From positions 1 through 33,039 of the forward strand of contig CAIOKW010000014.1 of assembly GCA_903858975.1 (NCBI GenBank): DNA of 33,039 nucleotides. Reading direction: 5' to 3'. Positions 1-9,461 of the stretch are shown one piece after another; the stretch's first letter is position 1; each line of letters opens with the position of its first letter. The notes beneath the pieces were generated by a model. It worked only from the letters and a program-made list of their open reading frames with translations, made no database searches and was not told where the DNA came from. A program made the position numbers and the translations under genes. The stretch is from Oligoflexia bacterium (GTDB lineage: Bacteria; Bdellovibrionota; UBA1018; CAIMNF01).

Positions 1-791
1 TGGGCATACTGTCGATTGAGGAGTGTGGTCGTGCTAAAAAATGGGACTCCAAGTCTTAACCAGTAGACCTGTAAAATCAAAAACAAACCAAAATAGAGTA
101 CCCCCAAACCCACGGGCGCTCGGCCCGAGTGAAGGGCGCCCTCGAGGGGGATCACACTCCCCAAAATAATCAAGAACGCCATCAAAATAAGACCCAATTG
201 GCTTCCCGAGTACTTTGGAATCAACACCATCCAATCGCTCATGAAAATAGACCCGAGCAAGTGGGTTGCCAGAACATAAAACAGGGAGAGGACCACCGCC
301 CAAACCCCAAACATCAGCGTTCTTTGTCGGATGAGTCGCACCCAGTTTTGACTCTTTTTAGATTCAATTAAAATGAGGCTGGTGGAACAGAAGTACATCC
401 CAAGAGCCGCACCCAGAAAGAGGACTAGATTATTTGCCTGAAACAAAATCGAAATAAAGAGAGCATTAAACACAAGAAAGAGACTTGTATTTTGCTGATC
501 ACGAACGCTCAATTCCCGGTGGAAATAAAACAAGAGCCCAAAAATTGCTAGGGACCCAAGTGAAAGCAAGCGTCCAAAATAAGACAAGGAATCTGAATAG
601 AGAACCTGAAGTGGGGATTCAAAAAATGCAAGATCCGTTCTAAACGTGAAATAAACGAGTATCGCAGCAATCGCGGGGGAAAGAATCAGTGCCAAGGCCT
701 TCAGGCTCAGCACTCGAAAATTGACAACGACGAGAGATACAAACAAACACCCGATCAAACTAATTTCGGGCAGCCAATTTAATAGAGTCAC
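1..791 (-). CDS. NuoN-like (antiporter-like complex I membrane subunit), 3'-partial at window edge
   Basis: Manual translation from GTG at 791 (GTGA overlap with the stop of the upstream gene). Open reading to window edge: (M)TLLNWLPEISLIGCLFVSLVVVNFRVLSLKALALIL...SLFLVFNALFISILFQANNLVLFLGAALGMYF... Multi-TM; position after M-like gene matches nuo order. Absent from ORF track because of the GTG start and missing stop. Confidence 0.6.
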   Translation of the reverse strand, partial: MTLLNWLPEISLIGCLFVSLVVVNFRVLSLKALALILSPAIAAILVYFTFRTDLAFFESPLQVLYSDSLSYFGRLLSLGSLAIFGLLFYFHRELSVRDQQNTSLFLVFNALFISILFQANNLVLFLGAALGMYFCSTSLILIESKKSQNWVRLIRQRTLMFGVWAVVLSLFYVLATHLLGSIFMSDWMVLIPKYSGSQLGLILMAFLIILGSVIPLEGALHSGRAPVGLGVLYFGLFLILQVYWLRLGVPFFSTTTLLNRQYA

Positions 792-1771
792 TTGATACCG
801 CCCATCCAATAAAATCCAATTCCTGAACAAATCTGGACTGCCACCACCAACCAGAAACGAACCTTAAGTCGAAGGGTCGCAACTGAAGGCTGGTAACTTT
901 GATACGCAATCAATGTAATGGCTTGTAAGAAATAGCCGGCTAAGAGCACAGAGAGCCAAACGAGATTCAAGGAGATCGCCATTTTAGCCGCGAAAAAAAT
1001 GGCCGTAAAACCAACTAAGCCCGGTAACCCCAAACAAGCTACTTTTGAGAACGCATGATAGCGGGGACCCATTTGAGCTGCAAGTCCCATCAGGGACAGT
1101 GAGCTGACGATCGATACTGAAATTGCGGCAAAGGTCACTTTACCGAGCGCCTCGTTATCAATCATCAAAATAAAGAGCGCAAGTCCAACCCCCGCCAAGG
1201 AAAGATAGATGATCGAGGACTTCATGCGCTGGCGCAAAAAAGCCATCAAGCTTGAATAAATGTAAGTAAAAATTCCGAGCACCGATAGCGCAACGTCCCA
1301 GAGCTGCGCGTTTTCTATTTTCATTTCAGGTCTAATCTTTAAAAGAATCTCAATTCCCACCAGAGATGGAATCACCGCTGCCCCCATAAATGAGGACAGT
1401 GTCAAACGCTCATAATAGCGGTTGAAAAAAAGAACGTGTGGGCCTGTCGGCAATGAAATCAATACTCCCAAGAACATGAGCACGCGAGAAGCTGGCTCAT
1501 CTCCCATCGCCGCCCCCAGAATGGCGCAAAAGATTCCTAGAAAGCTAATAAAGAATTTTTTTTGCACCAAAGGATTACTTGCACGTCTCGCGCCCAAAGT
1601 AGACTGAATGAATGCAACCATGTTTAGAGTTAAAAGCAACAATAGACTCATTGGAATCGACTTTGAAAAGAACACAAGTGCTGCAATCAACACCGACAAC
1701 CAAGATTGAGGCGCTAGGCTCAAGGCCCATGAGGCAGCAACACAAGTACCCAATAAGTTGAGCTCCATCAT
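788..1771 (-). CDS. NuoM-like (Mrp-antiporter-like complex I subunit), reduced size
   Basis: ORF 788..1816; the better start is ATG at 1771 (ATGA overlap with the upstream stop). 'YSSLMAFLRQRMKSSIIYLSLAGVGLAL' resembles the TM8 region 'alxQxDlKrllAYSSisHxG' of NuoL/M/N. Confidence 0.65.
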   Translation of the reverse strand: MMELNLLGTCVAASWALSLAPQSWLSVLIAALVFFSKSIPMSLLLLLTLNMVAFIQSTLGARRASNPLVQKKFFISFLGIFCAILGAAMGDEPASRVLMFLGVLISLPTGPHVLFFNRYYERLTLSSFMGAAVIPSLVGIEILLKIRPEMKIENAQLWDVALSVLGIFTYIYSSLMAFLRQRMKSSIIYLSLAGVGLALFILMIDNEALGKVTFAAISVSIVSSLSLMGLAAQMGPRYHAFSKVACLGLPGLVGFTAIFFAAKMAISLNLVWLSVLLAGYFLQAITLIAYQSYQPSVATLRLKVRFWLVVAVQICSGIGFYWMGGIK

Positions 1772-2616
1772 GATAGAAAGCCTCCACGTCCGATGAGAAT
1801 AAAAATACCAACACAAATCATGGTGCCTAAAACCACGTAGAACATTCGGTCAAAACCTGACTCGAGTGAGACCGAAGATGTCGCAGGCTCTCGCCCCTCC
1901 CAAACATCTCGATCTGATATCATCCGTCCACCCACCGTAAGTGCCTTCAACATATTGACTCTAAACGCTCGATAGGTTTTCAAAAATCCTTCATTACGCC
2001 ACTTCACCCATGCAAAGAGAGCCGCCACAATAAACACAAAAGAAGATGCCAGGATTACCAGCGAAGATTCTTCTGCCCACTTCTGAATATCCACATGGAA
2101 TCCAAAAAGGATCGCGAGCGTACAGACTGCCTCTAGGAAGGGCAGAATTTTTTGTTCGTGTTTGGCCTTAGACCATCTCAAGAGCTCTGCTGAAAACCAA
2201 TATACTCCAGCCCCTATGAGTGGAATCTCAAGTTGTTCTGGCTGAGGAAAATACTGTCTAAACAATACCAGTGCAGGAATGGTTCCCAGCATCCCGCCAC
2301 CAAAACTCATCGAAATGAGGATCACTCCCAATAGACCACTAAACTCCCTAAATGGCTCGGGTGAAATCGCTCCCATCATAATCAAAAAGAATCCAATAAA
2401 GTCCTTTAGTTGAATCCAAGCGGAAGCCTTCGAATCAATTCGGTGCCAGAGCACCAGACCCGAAAATAAAATTGCTACGAGCGGCCCATGTAGCAATGAA
2501 CCCAAAAGAACCATGACAAATGGAAGAACCCTGCGCTCCCGAATGAGCCCAATGGCACTAAAAATAAAAAACAAGATTGTCGTCTGATCTAGGCGACTCA
2601 ACTCAAGATTCATCAT
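1768..2616 (-). CDS. NuoL-like membrane subunit, strongly shortened
   Basis: ORF 1768..2649 with probable start at M12 (2616). Multi-TM protein located between K-like and M-like genes. Homology weak by eye, mainly positional. Confidence 0.5.
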   Translation of the reverse strand: MMNLELSRLDQTTILFFIFSAIGLIRERRVLPFVMVLLGSLLHGPLVAILFSGLVLWHRIDSKASAWIQLKDFIGFFLIMMGAISPEPFREFSGLLGVILISMSFGGGMLGTIPALVLFRQYFPQPEQLEIPLIGAGVYWFSAELLRWSKAKHEQKILPFLEAVCTLAILFGFHVDIQKWAEESSLVILASSFVFIVAALFAWVKWRNEGFLKTYRAFRVNMLKALTVGGRMISDRDVWEGREPATSSVSLESGFDRMFYVVLGTMICVGIFILIGRGGFLS

Positions 2617-2842
2617 GATCGATTTGAACCTCCCCACGGGAAATGGCAAGTTGCGCCACTGCTAGAATTGCGAACAAAAAGACAGCCGTTGAGATGACGC
2701 TTTCTTCAGAAAAGCGGGCACCCACAATTCCAAGAATCGAGAGCGACACTCGCAATACGGCACCCGCGAAGTCAAGGGCATCGCCCGCAATGAATAAGGT
2801 ATAGAGTGAAAAAGTAAGGAGAAGCACGCCTAGAATAATCAT
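2603..2842 (-). CDS. NuoK-like small membrane subunit (79 aa)
   Basis: Three predicted TM segments; C-terminal 'STAVFLFAILAVAQLAISRGEVQID' resembles NuoK 'fvltvAAaEaaiGLAixxxxR'. Position after J-like gene. Confidence 0.55.
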   Translation of the reverse strand: MIILGVLLLTFSLYTLFIAGDALDFAGAVLRVSLSILGIVGARFSEESVISTAVFLFAILAVAQLAISRGEVQIDHDES

Positions 2843-3219
2843 CGCTTCCTCTTTTCTACCGCAACCCCAACCATCATCGCAGCAGAGAAAAGAGACACCA
2901 CGACCACCAGGGGGAGTAGGGAATCAAAAACAAATGGCTTGTCACTCCCCGTGGCCGGAGTTCCAGCATCCATTAAAAGAGGAGTCAGAGACACGCCCAA
3001 TAACACCGCAAGGACTGCCGCCTTTATTTTCTTTCCTGTCGTGATGGTTTGATCTGAACTACCCAGCAAAAACCTCACGCGAGAATTCTGAAACTGAATC
3101 AAAAGGCTCAACACCAATACTAAGACCCCTAAAAAGGGAACCTTCAAACAGAGAAATGCCGAGACCACTAAAAGGAAAACACCATCAAAAATTCGCAACT
3201 TAAAGGTCCCCTCTACCAA
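2839..3219 (-). CDS. NuoJ-like membrane subunit (126 aa)
   Basis: Multi-TM protein between I-like and K-like genes with a 4-bp overlap to the K-like gene. Call mostly positional. Confidence 0.5.
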   Translation of the reverse strand: MVEGTFKLRIFDGVFLLVVSAFLCLKVPFLGVLVLVLSLLIQFQNSRVRFLLGSSDQTITTGKKIKAAVLAVLLGVSLTPLLMDAGTPATGSDKPFVFDSLLPLVVVVSLFSAAMMVGVAVEKRKR

Positions 3220-3610
3220 AACTCATTTTAAGATCCTTCACTTCAAACACCGCAGCCTGAACTTCCTTGGTTTGAATGAGAGAATTAGGTTCACAGACCT
3301 CAACGCAAAGACCACAAAAAATACATTTCGAAAAGTCGATGTCGAATCGAGAAACCCAAGGGCGATTGTTTCGCGCATTTACTTTTGCATCTACCTCGAT
3401 GCATGCCGAGGGACACACCTTTACGCAATCTCCACAGCCGGTGCATTTTTCAATTTCATTAAACAGGAGTCCGCGCGCTCGAGCAGGGAAGTCGTCTTTA
3501 CCTCGAGAAGATACCGGATCCGGATAGAACTCGGTGTCGATCTTTCGAGTTTCATTTTTATTGGTGAAATGACCTAAGATTTTCTTAAACACGCGCCCCT
3601 CCTGGCTCAA
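3200..3610 (-). CDS. NuoI-like 2x[4Fe-4S] ferredoxin subunit
   Basis: CTGCGDCVKVCPSACIEVD and CIFCGLCVEVCEPNSL: eight cysteines of two [4Fe-4S] motifs. Confidence 0.8.
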   Translation of the reverse strand: MSQEGRVFKKILGHFTNKNETRKIDTEFYPDPVSSRGKDDFPARARGLLFNEIEKCTGCGDCVKVCPSACIEVDAKVNARNNRPWVSRFDIDFSKCIFCGLCVEVCEPNSLIQTKEVQAAVFEVKDLKMSFGRGDL

Positions 3611-4382
3611 AGAGTGCGAAACCTAACATCGCAATCAACCAAAGTACTCCCGTAATCGGGAAGAGATACAGAATGCTGATTCGAAGGAGGTCTTTTTGGT
3701 GGAATCGTGGGAAGTAAATTCCACAGATGCGAAACCCTAGATAGAGAATCGTTGCCTTTAAGTGAAAATCAAAAAAGTATTCTCCGCCGCCCAAGAAGAG
3801 TTTCGCCGTTAGCATGGACCAAACGTAGAACCGCGCAGATTGGAGCCAGCCTTTTTTGTCGAGCATGCCTTGAAAGGGGTGCTCTCCAAAGAGGATCATC
3901 CCAGAAAGCTGAAAGGGAATAACGAACAATAACTGACCAAAATTCCAACTCACACTACTCATGTTCGTTGTTTTAGAAATCGTAAAACATCCAAACAGAC
4001 AAAGAATAGCAATAGCACTTGAAACCGCAAAACGAACCTGCTGCCCATCGGATTCAATTCGCTTCGTAACCTGGTTCTTTCCATGCGCCAAGGCAATGAG
4101 CAAATAACCGCTGACCGCGAGGTAAATAAAAATCAAGTAATCAAAATTGAGTGCGATTAAGCCAACAATTGACAACTGGAATGCATAAAGGATCCAAGTC
4201 GTTTTAGACTCGATGTTTTTAATTTCAAGTCTTGCATCCACCCAGGTTTGCCAAATGAAATTACGAAACGCGATTTGCTTTCCGACTCGAGACTCATGGC
4301 GAGCCACCATTCTTTCGCTCATGGCGTACATCAGAAAAGAAAGTGGAAAAATTGAGATGATGGCTAAAATGGCTGAAATCAT
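3585..4382 (-). CDS. NuoH-like membrane subunit (265 aa)
   Basis: 'SERMVARHESRVG' resembles NuoH 'ERRvxxxxQxRxGP'; 'LFLGGGEYF...FPRFHQKDLLRISILYLFPI' resembles 'LFLGGw...xPRfRyDqLMxxxWkxLLPl'. Confidence 0.75.
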   Translation of the reverse strand: MISAILAIISIFPLSFLMYAMSERMVARHESRVGKQIAFRNFIWQTWVDARLEIKNIESKTTWILYAFQLSIVGLIALNFDYLIFIYLAVSGYLLIALAHGKNQVTKRIESDGQQVRFAVSSAIAILCLFGCFTISKTTNMSSVSWNFGQLLFVIPFQLSGMILFGEHPFQGMLDKKGWLQSARFYVWSMLTAKLFLGGGEYFFDFHLKATILYLGFRICGIYFPRFHQKDLLRISILYLFPITGVLWLIAMLGFALFEPGGARV

Positions 4383-5389
4383 CGATCAAGCTCCGGGATA
4401 GACAGCGACAGACTCTCGAGAATGATGGACACATCCTCGAGTGATTCTCCCTCGAGCGCCGGCGCGATTGCATTTTGAATAAGTTCGGACGGGGAGTGAG
4501 TCACCAGTGACTTCACCTTTAAATCTTGATCAAGCGATAGCTTCATTTTCCAAACTCCTCGCGCAGTTTCAAGCTCTAGGTTCGCGTCTCCGCCACGCCC
4601 CTGGCCCAGCGCCTGAAGATGCACGCTGGATTTTCTTTCTACCAAATGAGCCTCGATGGACTGGCTCATTTTCAAACAATGCTTCAGAGAATAAACCAAT
4701 CTCGACTCAACATGGCTTACCCGTCCGTATCGAGTGGTTTCAATCGAAGCCTCGCTGACAAAGCCGCAATCTCCAAGATCCACAATTTGCCCAAGCGTTC
4801 TCATTCGATTTTGAAAGGTATGCGTCCAACAAAAAAGGGCTTCAAGCCTAGCGTAGTCATTTTGGAAAGTCTTCACCCAGGTTTCAAGACGCTCTTGAAA
4901 TCCTTCCGTCAGATCGTAACGTGCGCCCCCTGGAACCAGATAATAGTAACCGTATCGGGAGCCCGTGAGGAGCTCAAGTAGATCAAGGAGAGACTCTCGA
5001 TGCTTTAAAACAGCATGAAATAGAATTTGAATTCCCATTCGATGCGCCATTTTCGCCAAGTATTTCAGCTGAAAATTAATCTCACTCAGATCACTCGTAA
5101 TGTCTCGAATCCACTCGATTCGATCGCTGACTTCCGTTTTTGTAATTTCTTCAACCGCCTCACTGAAGAGCCGATCAAGCAGCAGAGCACTTTCTGGCTC
5201 TAGGCGGCTCACTCTCAATTGAGCATCACGTATGGGTAAACCCTCTACGGTTTTCTCGATCAGGCGGCTAGCGAAACCAAACTGGGTTTCGACTTTTACA
5301 ATACGATCCCCGCTCATTCCTAAGCGAAGCTTCATGGGTCCAGGGAGCCATTCGTGAATAGGTCCAAGCTCAAGTGTTTCTTGAATCAT
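4379..5389 (-). CDS. NuoD-like (49-kDa / hydrogenase large-subunit fold) protein
   Basis: N-terminus 'LGPIHEWLPGPMKLRLGMSGDRIVKVETQFGFASRLIEKTVEGLPIRDAQLRVS' aligns with NuoD 'LGPxHPxxHGxxRxxxxxdGExixxxxxxxGyxHRGxEKxxExxxxxPYxDRxxYxS'; 'LVPGGARYDLT' resembles the NuoD 'xRPGGV' motif. No hydrogenase CxxC pairs. Confidence 0.7.
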   Translation of the reverse strand: MIQETLELGPIHEWLPGPMKLRLGMSGDRIVKVETQFGFASRLIEKTVEGLPIRDAQLRVSRLEPESALLLDRLFSEAVEEITKTEVSDRIEWIRDITSDLSEINFQLKYLAKMAHRMGIQILFHAVLKHRESLLDLLELLTGSRYGYYYLVPGGARYDLTEGFQERLETWVKTFQNDYARLEALFCWTHTFQNRMRTLGQIVDLGDCGFVSEASIETTRYGRVSHVESRLVYSLKHCLKMSQSIEAHLVERKSSVHLQALGQGRGGDANLELETARGVWKMKLSLDQDLKVKSLVTHSPSELIQNAIAPALEGESLEDVSIILESLSLSIPELDR

Positions 5390-5763
5390 TTTTGAACCTC
5401 ACGCAAAGACAAAATTCCATTCATAATCGCTTCGGGGCGGGGCGGACATCCGGTGACATAAATATCTACCGGAATTTTCTCGCTCGAATTCAAGGGGAAC
5501 AAGCCCCCTCCACATGCGCAGGTTCCTACAGCGATGACGTATTTAGGAGCTCGCATCTTTGCATAGAAGCTTTCCACTTCGGTCTGTAGGCTCGCGTTAA
5601 GGGTTCCCTGGATCACTAACAAATTGGCATCCTCTACCTGCTCGGCACGGATGCAACCCAGTCGCTCTAAATCGTAACGACTCGATTCCGTCTGAATCCA
5701 ATCGTCTCCACAGCAAGAGAGTCCAACACGAACGTATTTAAGGGTGGGTTTAAAGGTCTTCAT
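5386..5763 (-). CDS. NuoB-like (PSST, N2 cluster) subunit
   Basis: 'LSCCGDDWIQTESSRYDLERLG', 'AVGTCACGGGLF' and 'VDIYVTGCPPRPEAIMNGIL' match NuoB CC / GSCAxxGG / PGCPPRPEA motifs. Confidence 0.88.
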   Translation of the reverse strand: MKTFKPTLKYVRVGLSCCGDDWIQTESSRYDLERLGCIRAEQVEDANLLVIQGTLNASLQTEVESFYAKMRAPKYVIAVGTCACGGGLFPLNSSEKIPVDIYVTGCPPRPEAIMNGILSLREVQK

Positions 5764-5974
5764 CGGAGTCTTTCTTCAAGTAGTTCTGCGTTGCCAAGAA
5801 GAATGACAAAAAGACTATCATCATGACCAAAATCGCGATTAAATAGGGGATGATCCGAATCTCACTGGAGATGAAAACCGGAAGGGCCATAAGCAGCGGA
5901 ATCCACAAGTAAAGAATCACTTGGGTTATCTGCGTGGTCTTGATCTCAAAGGGCAAAATTCTTTTCGGATCCAT
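5750..5974 (-). CDS. NuoA-like small membrane subunit (start uncertain; ORF extends to 6073)
   Basis: 'DPKRILPFE...YLWIPLLMALPVFISSE...' weakly resembles NuoA 'KxxPYECG...fYLxAxLFxxFDxE'. Two TM segments. First gene of the cluster, overlaps nuoB-like by 14 bp. Confidence 0.45.
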   Translation of the reverse strand: MDPKRILPFEIKTTQITQVILYLWIPLLMALPVFISSEIRIIPYLIAILVMMIVFLSFFLATQNYLKKDSDEDL

Positions 5975-6014
5975 TTGTAATGAAAAGGCTACTTGAAAGT
6001 GAAAGGGTGAGTCA

Positions 6015-9000
6015 ATGCCTGCCGATTCGCGTGAGATAAAATTATCTTCATCCCTAGCCCAAGCCTTCTCCACCTATCGATCTGCCACACAGCAAAAAAG
6101 ATCAATTCAGGTGATGCTTCTCCCTCGTACTGAGCAAATCGAGGAGCTTCAACTCTTGCTTCAGAGCTTTATTGATGCGGAACGAAATGAAGTGGCGCGC
6201 CCCATTGAGGTGTGCCTTTGGCCTGCCTGGGAACATTCGCCCTTTTCACCCGTGTCCTCGTCCATCACCCAAAAGACAGATCGACTTCGAACCTTATCGC
6301 TCCTCAGCAATCCTTCACCCTCCTTGATTATTCTTGCCTCTTTAGAGTCCTGGATCCAACCCACCCTTCCAAAATCAGCGTTTGATCAAGCCCAATTTGA
6401 AATTGAGCTCAATGACGATGCGGGCCTAAGGGATGTGCTTCGCCAAAGACTCAGGAACCTGGGTTATGTTCCCAGTGAACTCGTTCAAGAGCCGGGGCAG
6501 TTTGCATTTCGGGGTGAGATCTTGGATGTCTTTATTCCCACTCATCCCATGCCGGCTCGAATTGAGTTTTTTGATACCATTCCTGAAACCATTCGATTCT
6601 TTCATCCTGAGACTCAGCGCACACAAAAAACGGAAAAACCGCTCCAATCCATCCTCATCTCGCCAGCAGAAGAGGTCTTGTTTCCCTGGAACGAGCAGGG
6701 AAAAATCTTGGAGCGCATTAAGGAATATTGCGATCTAAATCAAATATCCAGGAAAGTTCGGGACCCGATATTTGAAAACGTTCGGAATGGCTTTCTTCCA
6801 GATCATTTTAGGACCTGGTTTCCATTCGTTTATGAAAACTTAGGTCATTTAAAGGACTACTTACCTGAAGATGCGGTATTAAGTGTTCTTGAGCCAGAAC
6901 AGATTCAATTAGAACTGACTCGAACCACTGAATTTTTAAAAAAAGAAGAAACCAAATACTCACAACCTTATTGGATCACACCTTCATTTGATCGCCTCTA
7001 TCCAGCCCTGAGCGCACTGATCGATCAAACCCTGAACCAGGCTCAGAGAATCGTCCGGGCTGCGCCTGAAGACTTAAAAGCAAAGGGACCTATTCCTTTT
7101 GACCCACTCCCTTCGGCAAGGGTGACTGAAAATGAAATTGAAGAGTGGCTAGAGGATGGTTTTAAAGTTTGGGTGGGAACTCGGGGGCTCACCCATCAAG
7201 AACGTCTTCGCTTTTCATTAAAAAAAGTCCAGAAGAACATTGGATTTAAGCTCTTAGGTTTTGATTCAGGGGAATCGTTTCAGTTTCTGACCGAGAAGCA
7301 AATCATTCTTTCAGAGACCGCAATCTTTGGTCAGGCACACCAACACTCCAAGCGCCCCAGTCAACCCAGGCATCCCAAATTTGAACAAACCGAGGGTCTC
7401 GACTTTCAACACCATCAAGATCTGGCGGTGGGTGATTTTGTGGTCCACTCCCTTCATGGGGTTGGAAAGTATGTGGGCCTCCAGGAATTAAAATCCGGAA
7501 ACAAACACCTCGGGGAATATCTTTTGATTGAGTATTCAGGAGGAGATAAGCTCTACCTTCCCGTCTATCGACTGAACACGATTCAGCGTTACGTTGCCTC
7601 TGGAGGAAGCGCTTCACTTGATAAGCTTGGGACGGGTCAATTTGAGAAAGCGAAGCAAAAAGCGCGCGAATCAGCTCGAAAACTCGCAATTAACTTGGTC
7701 GAGATTTACGCCAAACGCGCCCTATTAAAGGGGCCTCGTTTTGATCCGCCTGGCGACGAATACTATGAGTTTTGTGATCAATTTGAATTCACAGAAACCG
7801 AGGGTCAACTGAAGGCCATTCAAGATGTCCTGCAAGACCTAGAGGCCGGAAAACTACTCGATCGCTTGGTGTGCGGAGACGTCGGCTTTGGTAAAACTGA
7901 AGTCGCCATTCGAGCCGCCTTTCAGGCTGTTCAAAGTGGCCATCAGGTGGCACTCTTGGTGCCCACCACGCTCCTTGCGTTTCAGCACGAGCAATCATTT
8001 AAAAATCGAATGAAAGATTTCCCAATTCGAATTGAGTCGATTTCTCGATTTAAGACGAAAAAAATTCAGAATGAAACACTGAAGGAACTGAAAGAGGGAA
8101 AGATCGATATTTTGATTGGCACCCACCGCATACTTTCGAAAGACGTTGAGTGGAATCGCCTGGGTCTACTCATGATTGATGAAGAACATCGTTTTGGGGT
8201 TGAGCACAAAGAAAAAATTAAAGCCATTCAAGCAAATACCCACACTCTCACACTGACGGCGACACCGATTCCACGGACCCTCAACATGGCGATCAGTGGC
8301 CTTAAAGACATCAGCGTGATTAAGACACCTCCGACCAATCGACAGCCAATTAAAACCTACGTTTCAAGCTACTCCGAAGAACTCATCAAGGGCGCACTCG
8401 AGACCGAGCTTGCTCGTGGGGGGCAGATTTTCTACCTCTACAATCGTGTTCAAAGCATTCAGCACCAAGCCGACGAGATTCAAAAACTCGTTCCTCACGC
8501 AAAAGTGATTGTGGCTCACGGTCAAATGTCCGAAGCCGAAATTGAGTCCAAAATGCTTGAGTTTTATCAAGGCCAGGCTCAAATTTTGGTCTGTACCACA
8601 ATTATTGAATCCGGCATTGATGTCCCGAATGCTGGCACAATTCTCATTCATCGCGCCGACCAACTTGGACTCGCTCAGCTCTATCAAATTCGGGGTCGGG
8701 TGGGCCGAAGCCATCGTAAAGCGTTTGCCTATTTACTTGTGAATGATGAATCCACGCTCACTAATGACGCCAAGATGCGACTCGACGTCCTTCAGCGCTT
8801 TGTGGAACTCGGAAGTGGATTTCAAATCGCATCTTACGATTTAGAGATTCGTGGCGGTGGAAACTTCTTGGGTGGTGAACAGTCAGGACATGTGACTTCC
8901 GTAGGACTTGATCTCTTTACCGAGCTTCTGGAAGAGGCCATTCAAGAGCTCAAAGGACAAAAAATCGATGTGGAGGAACGTCATTTTGAGCCCGAAATTC

Positions 9001-9461
9001 AGGTGCCTGCCGTTTGTGAGATCAGTAGTACGCTCGTGCCGGATGCTAAGCTTCGTCTGTCTCTCTATCGGAAAATTTCAAACGCCAGAACGCCCGAGAT
9101 GGTGGATGCACTGTTTGAAGAGTTTCGAGATCGTTTCGGTGAGGTACCAATGGAGACCGAGAATTTATTTTGGCTCATCCGCCTAAAGAACTTACTGAAA
9201 AGAGCCGGCATTGAGCAACTCTCCGTAACTGGAGAGAGAACCTCGATGACCGTCAGAAAAACGTCGCAAGTCGATGCAGATGAGGTCATGAAGATCTATG
9301 CGGGCCCGAAAACGATTCGCGACCCGCGGGTACAACTGACTCCAGACTCCAAGATCCTCCTCACACTTCCATTTTTCAGCCTTCAGAGTCATCTTTTTGA
9401 GCTAGAGGCTTTTCTTAAGAAAATCGCGCCCAAAGCATTTGAAAATGCAAAAACCCACTGA
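6015..9461 (+). CDS. mfd: Transcription-repair coupling factor
   Basis: 1148 aa; CarD/RID region '[20 protein letters not shown]', Walker A '[16 protein letters not shown]', '[12 protein letters not shown]', '[16 protein letters not shown]'. Confidence 0.97.

Follow-up and report, generated by a model that had tools for sequence, protein, structure and literature searches.

Introduction

The described variants of complex I mostly differ, to our knowledge, in their electron-input module, with quinone site and proton channels left in place. A D-like subunit devoid of the quinone His/Tyr occurs together with a small subunit carrying iron-sulfur (FeS) clusters and an antiporter-like arm in Group 4 [NiFe] hydrogenases, Mbs and related complexes without NiFe ligands. 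Set beside these is the locus considered here, which lies at one end of a 33,039-nucleotide stretch of DNA from an Oligoflexia bacterium (assembly GCA_903858975.1, contig CAIOKW010000014.1; the whole stretch is hereafter the window) and encodes a second complex I in tandem with a first, normal one. No description of this second complex was found in the open literature searched, coverage of which was partial.

Organization of the double nuo locus

Ten open frames on the minus strand occupy positions 1–5974 of the window in the Nuo order A'-B'-D'-H'-I'-J'-K'-L'-M'-N' (primes mark the second complex), and all nine junctions are overlaps: 14 bp at A/B, 4 at B/D, 4 at D/H, 8 at H/I, 20 at I/J, 4 at J/K, 14 at K/L and 4 at both L/M and M/N. 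The 4-bp overlaps, of the ATGA/GTGA type, fall at the five junctions named in the original prediction, which had described ten minus-strand genes in nuo order overlapping everywhere. Its further description of a miniaturized complex I-like operon without C and the NADH module also agrees with what is seen: C, E, F and G are all missing from the window's cluster, C' was not found in the window's genus, and the second cluster lacks the EFG module by which an NADH:quinone oxidoreductase would be recognized. An assembly artefact is ruled out, as the identical gene order recurs in other genomes of the genus. The divergent neighbor, mfd (6015–9461, plus strand), codes for a transcription-repair coupling factor with TRCF, CarD, UvrB_inter and DEAD domains; it lies outside the complex and marks a conserved slot.

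The NuoN-like N' (1–791, minus strand; GTG start at 791) is cut by the end of the contig. The window begins where contig C14 begins, and the first 19 bases of C14 are identical to the last 19 of contig C311, such that the two are joinable via the 19-bp duplicate, giving an N' frame of 454 aa as against 485 aa in the canonical NuoN. The join is supported by the N'–nuoA order, which is unbroken in other genomes of the genus whose contigs span the junction. In the joined contigs, a complete canonical nuoABCDEFGHIJKLMN operon starts 37 bp past N'; thus, a double nuo locus is present, with the cluster as its upstream half, and the 37-bp gap makes co-expression with nuo likely. The full nuo operon whose presence in the genome was to be checked lies directly downstream of the cluster. 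The earlier statement that the subunits are much shorter than typical is borne out by their lengths, but it fails for N', which is nearly full length once the contig break is repaired.

Identity of the subunits

Among the proteins of the window, the NuoB-like B' (125 aa; 5386–5763; this and all following genes on the minus strand) matches the Pfam family Oxidored_q6 (7.7e-21), the NuoD-like D' (336 aa; 4379–5389) matches Complex1_49kDa (1.3e-17), and the NuoI-like I' (130 aa; 3200–3592), with eight cysteines in two 4Fe-4S binding motifs, matches Fer4. The NuoH-like H' (265 aa; 3585–4382) matches NADHdh at 0.0017, which is below the cut-off, and Pfam gives no complex I match for the remaining six, A', J', K', L', M' and N'. 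The full-length orthologues in relatives match Complex1_30kDa (8.6e-22), Complex1_49kDa (2.6e-73), NADHdh (2.9e-52), Oxidored_q3 (the orthologue of J'), Oxidored_q2 (that of K') and Proton_antipo_M (1.8e-32 and 1.9e-34); the longer A' orthologue shows a weak, sub-cut-off match to Oxidored_q4, and the 659-aa L' orthologue has no Pfam match. Profile HMMs built without the window's family reach the window's B', D' and I' in one step; H' (at 1e-19), M' and N' are reached through intermediate species. The D' profile matches Thermus Nqo4 at 6.5e-72, and the best NCBIfam matches of B', D', I', M' and N' are Nuo subunits, not hydrogenase subunits.

The identity of the remaining four subunits in the window's genus is mainly positional, i.e., given by gene order: A' (74 aa; 5750–5974), which also has a low dN/dS; J' (about 126 aa, its start codon being uncertain; 2839–3219); K' (79 aa; 2603–2842), whose size fits as well; and L' (282 aa; 1768–2616), which is conserved in the genus. 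The AlphaFold model of the NuoM-like M' (327 aa; 788–1771) has a pLDDT of 88 and a pTM of 0.88, and its top Foldseek matches are antiporter-like subunits of complex I and Mrp (TM 0.80 to 4he8_G of Thermus; best E 1.4e-6). Going by this model, M' appears to retain the complex I antiporter fold despite the loss of its canonical sites. The L' model, of low confidence at a pLDDT of 65, gave no structure match, and the identity of L' therefore stays positional. Thus, Nuo-type subunits stand in Nuo order as in the complex I superfamily, with A', J', K' and L' of the genus placed by position, and the complex I homology that was to be verified is upheld for B', D' and I' by Pfam and for H', M' and N' via intermediates, but not for L', for which neither a family nor a structure match was found.

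Distribution, origin and shrinkage

By NuoB searches, almost every relative carries a pair of copies. The two lie 6.8 kb apart on the same strand in the genus; their distance is 7.2 kb for G015, 8.6 kb for G019 and about 10 kb for the other families. The window belongs to an uncultured class of Bdellovibrio-like bacteria, and the D' profile matches 61 of the 63 class genomes searched; for three of these (G014, G055, G057) the match is weak or partial. The two without D' are G004 and G007, both of the window's genus. Outside the class, no D' match exceeds 305 bits, and the canonical motifs HPSTHG/HPATHG and DY are retained in the best out-of-class matches checked. An alignment scan with the D' of the genus returned ten loci from metagenome-assembled genomes, recorded as uncultured 'Bdellovibrionales/Oligoflexia'.

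In the mapped loci, the second complex occupies the slot between mfd and nuoA, with the mfd neighbor confirmed by its domains in the window and three other loci checked; the conservation beside mfd that had been proposed as a check thus extends to the relatives. In G004 (locus L069) and G007 (L070), mfd and nuoA are about 100 bp apart and the canonical nuo is intact. These two are clean natural deletions of the whole second complex, and as both species lost the cluster without losing nuo, it is dispensable; the deletions are also useful for spotting partner genes that were lost along with it. In the NuoD tree, a 100/99 branch separates all D' sequences from canonical NuoD, which points to a single origin and rules out a recent duplication of the neighboring nuo. 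The second complex is conserved vertically across the class, directly upstream of nuo.

Other arrangements were also encountered. Several class genomes carry a further complete complex I-type operon (L067 on G043:C134 and L068 on G047:C354) with the canonical quinone motifs (HPSTHG and DRLDY/DRMDY) and pumping residues, save for a K234 equivalent in NuoM; in L067, E, F and G do not lie between D and H. Outside the class, L066 (G148:C1, positions 4831–7674), and likewise L064 and L065, hold a stand-alone nuoB-C-D-I with canonical quinone motifs. In L066, neither nuoH nor membrane subunits follow; this is an isolated Q-module, and its membrane partners have to be encoded at another place.

The second complex varies greatly in length, most families having the full-length form. 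In families f2, f4 and f6, it comprises 11 full-length genes, with L' at about 650, M' at about 500, N' at about 490 and H' at about 350 aa. L' passes through intermediates of 529 aa in G019 (family f5), about 458 aa in G005 and 414 aa in G015, to about 277–295 aa in the remainder of the genus; in the window's genus, the proteins are down to as little as half size and L' has shed more than half its length. Miniaturization is specific to the window's family and came late in a second complex that is class-wide. The miniaturized-operon reading was thus right as to the shrinkage itself, but it missed that this is a late, family-specific event and that residue replacement is class-wide.

Residues lost and kept

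The numbering follows Thermus for NuoD His38 and Tyr87, and E. coli for the sites of NuoH, NuoK, NuoL, NuoM and NuoN. Compared with Thermus Nqo4, the D' of the window has Pro at both the His38 and the Tyr87 positions. Across 56 species, His38 is kept in none and Tyr87 in six (in f3, f8 and f9), and the pair of residues expected of a functional quinone-reducing complex I is therefore lacking. The replacements are themselves regular, with conserved prolines for both ligands in most families: in 48 rows, full-length and reduced together, Pro stands for His38 in 44 and for Tyr87 in 41, and the residue after the Tyr87 position is Glu in 44. With a mean column identity of 0.55, these positions rank among the better conserved ones of D', and the replacement residues are new states that have become fixed, not drift. 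The Arg84 position of D' is Arg in most rows and otherwise mostly His or Lys.

The iron-sulfur ligands show the opposite tendency to persist. In B', 54 of 55 rows have all four N2 cysteines, the exception being a draft sequence (G050), and in I', 48 of 49 have all eight cysteines, the exception being an in-frame TAG in G017; the N2 cysteines in NuoB and the two 4Fe-4S motifs in NuoI that characterize the superfamily are both present. It might be supposed from these N2 ligands, the retained Arg84 position and the normal entry to the respiratory chain in the class that quinone is still reduced without pumping, being reached via a remodelled D'/B'/H' site uncoupled from proton transfer. But the loss of His38 throughout and of Tyr87 in all but six species, the deletion of the E-channel segment of H' in the genus, and own D' and H' sequences that suggest no other known quinone site make such a quinone reductase improbable.

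On the proton path, NuoK E36/E72, NuoM E144/K234/K265/E407, NuoN E133/K217, the NuoL Glu/Lys/His set and the E-channel Glu of NuoH are replaced in nearly all families examined. In the window, K' has no Glu at the E36/E72 positions, M' lacks E144, K234, K265 and E407, and the E-channel Glu of H' are gone; 48 of 53 species keep none of the four Glu counted in H', and the segment bearing the E-channel Glu is deleted in the window's genus. The NuoK, NuoL, NuoM and NuoN Glu/Lys residues and NuoH E-channel required of a functional proton pump are hence not in place, with several kept in f3. The exceptions come mostly from this earlier-branching family, which has Tyr in D', K265 and E407 in M', E133 in N' and some Glu in H'; since f3 keeps several canonical residues, complete functional loss across the class is not proven. 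The canonical operon of the window's own genome keeps all these sites but one (NuoN K247 is Thr). As the NuoM of L067 and L068, another complex I type of the class, is also without K234, single sites are no proof, while the overall pattern is.

The charged sites kept in f3, and the continued selection on the antiporter-like subunits, might be taken to mean that the second complex is still a proton or cation pump using non-canonical residues. Against this, the families share no new set of charged residues column by column, the replaced sites now holding Q, A, P, L, H or S, and less than half of L' remains in the genus, which leaves this idea barely credible. Overall, the second complex is very probably not a classical quinone-reducing proton pump, and the comparison between families shows that the replacement at its quinone site and proton path took place across the class and preceded the shrinkage, with the iron-sulfur ligands retained.

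Selection on the shrunken genes

Pairwise dN/dS values (NG86) were obtained with the close species G001, G006, G010 and G013, the comparison of the window's own genes with G013 being saturated at synonymous sites. For the least saturated pair, they are 0.00 for A', 0.03 for B', 0.03 for D', 0.02 for H', 0.01 for I', 0.08 for J', 0.04 for K', 0.06 for L', 0.02 for M' and 0.02 for N', against 0.00–0.05 for canonical nuo A-D in the least saturated pair. Over the four species, the values range from 0.00 to 0.10 apart from J' (up to 0.16), with L' at 0.04–0.06. Purifying selection thus acts on each of the ten shrunken genes, in line with the selection argued for in the original prediction, and the second complex evolves faster than the canonical nuo. 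Single in-frame TAG codons occur in L059 at about 6957 (I' of G017) and in L062 (D' of G020), the frames being otherwise intact; they may reflect sequencing error, readthrough or early decay.

Several of these facts could be strung together into the picture of an ancestral 11-subunit complex I that survives as a decaying relic, lost lineage by lineage: the clean losses in G004 and G007, the faster evolution relative to canonical nuo, the TAG codons within the D' frame of G020 and the I' frame of G017, and the progressive shortening. The picture is contradicted by dN/dS far under 1 in every gene, by the frames of the other congeneric species checked, which are intact and overlap, by a new and conserved motif where the quinone ligands used to be and by presence in nearly all class genomes, and a relic of this kind is very improbable. 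Decay as such is ruled out by the low dN/dS along with the conserved new residues at the old quinone site, and the second complex is very likely being maintained.

Proposed function

The simplest use of the kept I' clusters and N2 is a relay. On this ground, the second complex is proposed to be a maintained, non-pumping, complex I-derived iron-sulfur relay of the membrane, a proposal with about as much for it as against it. Electrons would enter at I' from a soluble carrier, and the I' clusters would pass them to N2 in B'; N2 would hand them on, not to quinone in the classical cavity, but to some other acceptor, either a carrier at the remodelled D' site or a partner protein. For the membrane arm this would leave a role as scaffold and anchor, one that fits its later shortening: with pumping lost first, the arm would have been free to shrink, as it did in the window's family.

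No gene for a donor or acceptor could be tied to the second complex, and none was found nearby. A pyruvate/2-oxoacid:ferredoxin oxidoreductase is clear in 3 of the 14 genus genomes and was not found in that of the window, which is 85% complete; a ferredoxin supply of this type is thus not supported as the general donor. NuoF has one match per genome in 13 of the 14 genus genomes, which indicates that there is no spare NADH module. It is possible that the canonical NADH module is shared with the second complex, less likely so where C' is gone.

The main rival has the second complex serve the complex I encoded with it, in a regulatory role or in assembly: a pseudo-enzyme would regulate or scaffold the adjacent canonical complex, as an iron-sulfur redox sensor or an assembly partner, with no net electron transfer. 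The fixed position directly upstream of nuo would suit such a role, as would the loss of the catalytic residues with retention of the fold and clusters, and the lack of donor or acceptor genes nearby. But G004 and G007 have an intact nuo without it, such that nuo does not need it, and the 12 Cys ligands kept in two subunits exceed what a scaffold needs; we regard this role as rather unlikely. Whether the body is an electron relay in preference to something purely structural or regulatory is, in our estimate, evenly balanced. The original prediction of a distinct membrane redox complex remains the best reading. A more specific version—a new membrane redox device, made by this class of Bdellovibrionota from a complete second complex I, in which the iron-sulfur wiring was kept, the quinone site remade with a conserved motif of Leu-Pro and Pro-Glu, pumping abolished and the arm, in one family, cut back in the direction of what is minimally required—is offered somewhat more tentatively.

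Comparison with known systems

The second complex provides natural homologues of complex I with the quinone site and proton channels replaced and the whole 10- to 11-gene assembly under purifying selection. The intermediates can be arranged from f3, then f2, then f5, G015, G005 and the remaining genus, along with two deletions within one genus. If the above reading is true, this is a natural series separating the structural from the pumping parts of complex I, and it lets one ask which parts of the three-antiporter arm serve assembly alone and whether complex I is reusable for a task other than energy conversion.

Among known systems, a parallel might be struck with Group 4 [NiFe] hydrogenases, Mbs and the related complexes, which the second complex resembles in its D-like subunit without the quinone His/Tyr, its FeS small subunit and its antiporter-like arm. 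A [NiFe] hydrogenase is itself ruled out, as the translated D' of the window has no NiFe-binding CxxC pair at either end and the best NCBIfam matches are to Nuo. The canonical 14-subunit complex I (NDH-1) encoded downstream is homologous, with the same order, N2 and NuoI clusters; in contrast to it, the second complex is without EFG and the pumping residues, and its D' sits on a separate branch of the tree; in the window's own genome, D' and canonical NuoD share only 25% identity over 203 aa. The 11-gene complex I without the NADH module matches the full-length class-wide form in gene order and subunit set (including C'), and NuoI is the presumed electron entry there as here. The full-length families can accordingly be counted with it, while a shared quinone chemistry is not supported: unlike the 11-gene complex I, the second complex has its quinone ligands and proton-path Glu/Lys replaced, in the window's genus it is without a detected C' and has subunits shortened to as little as half, and it stands in tandem with a complete 14-subunit operon.
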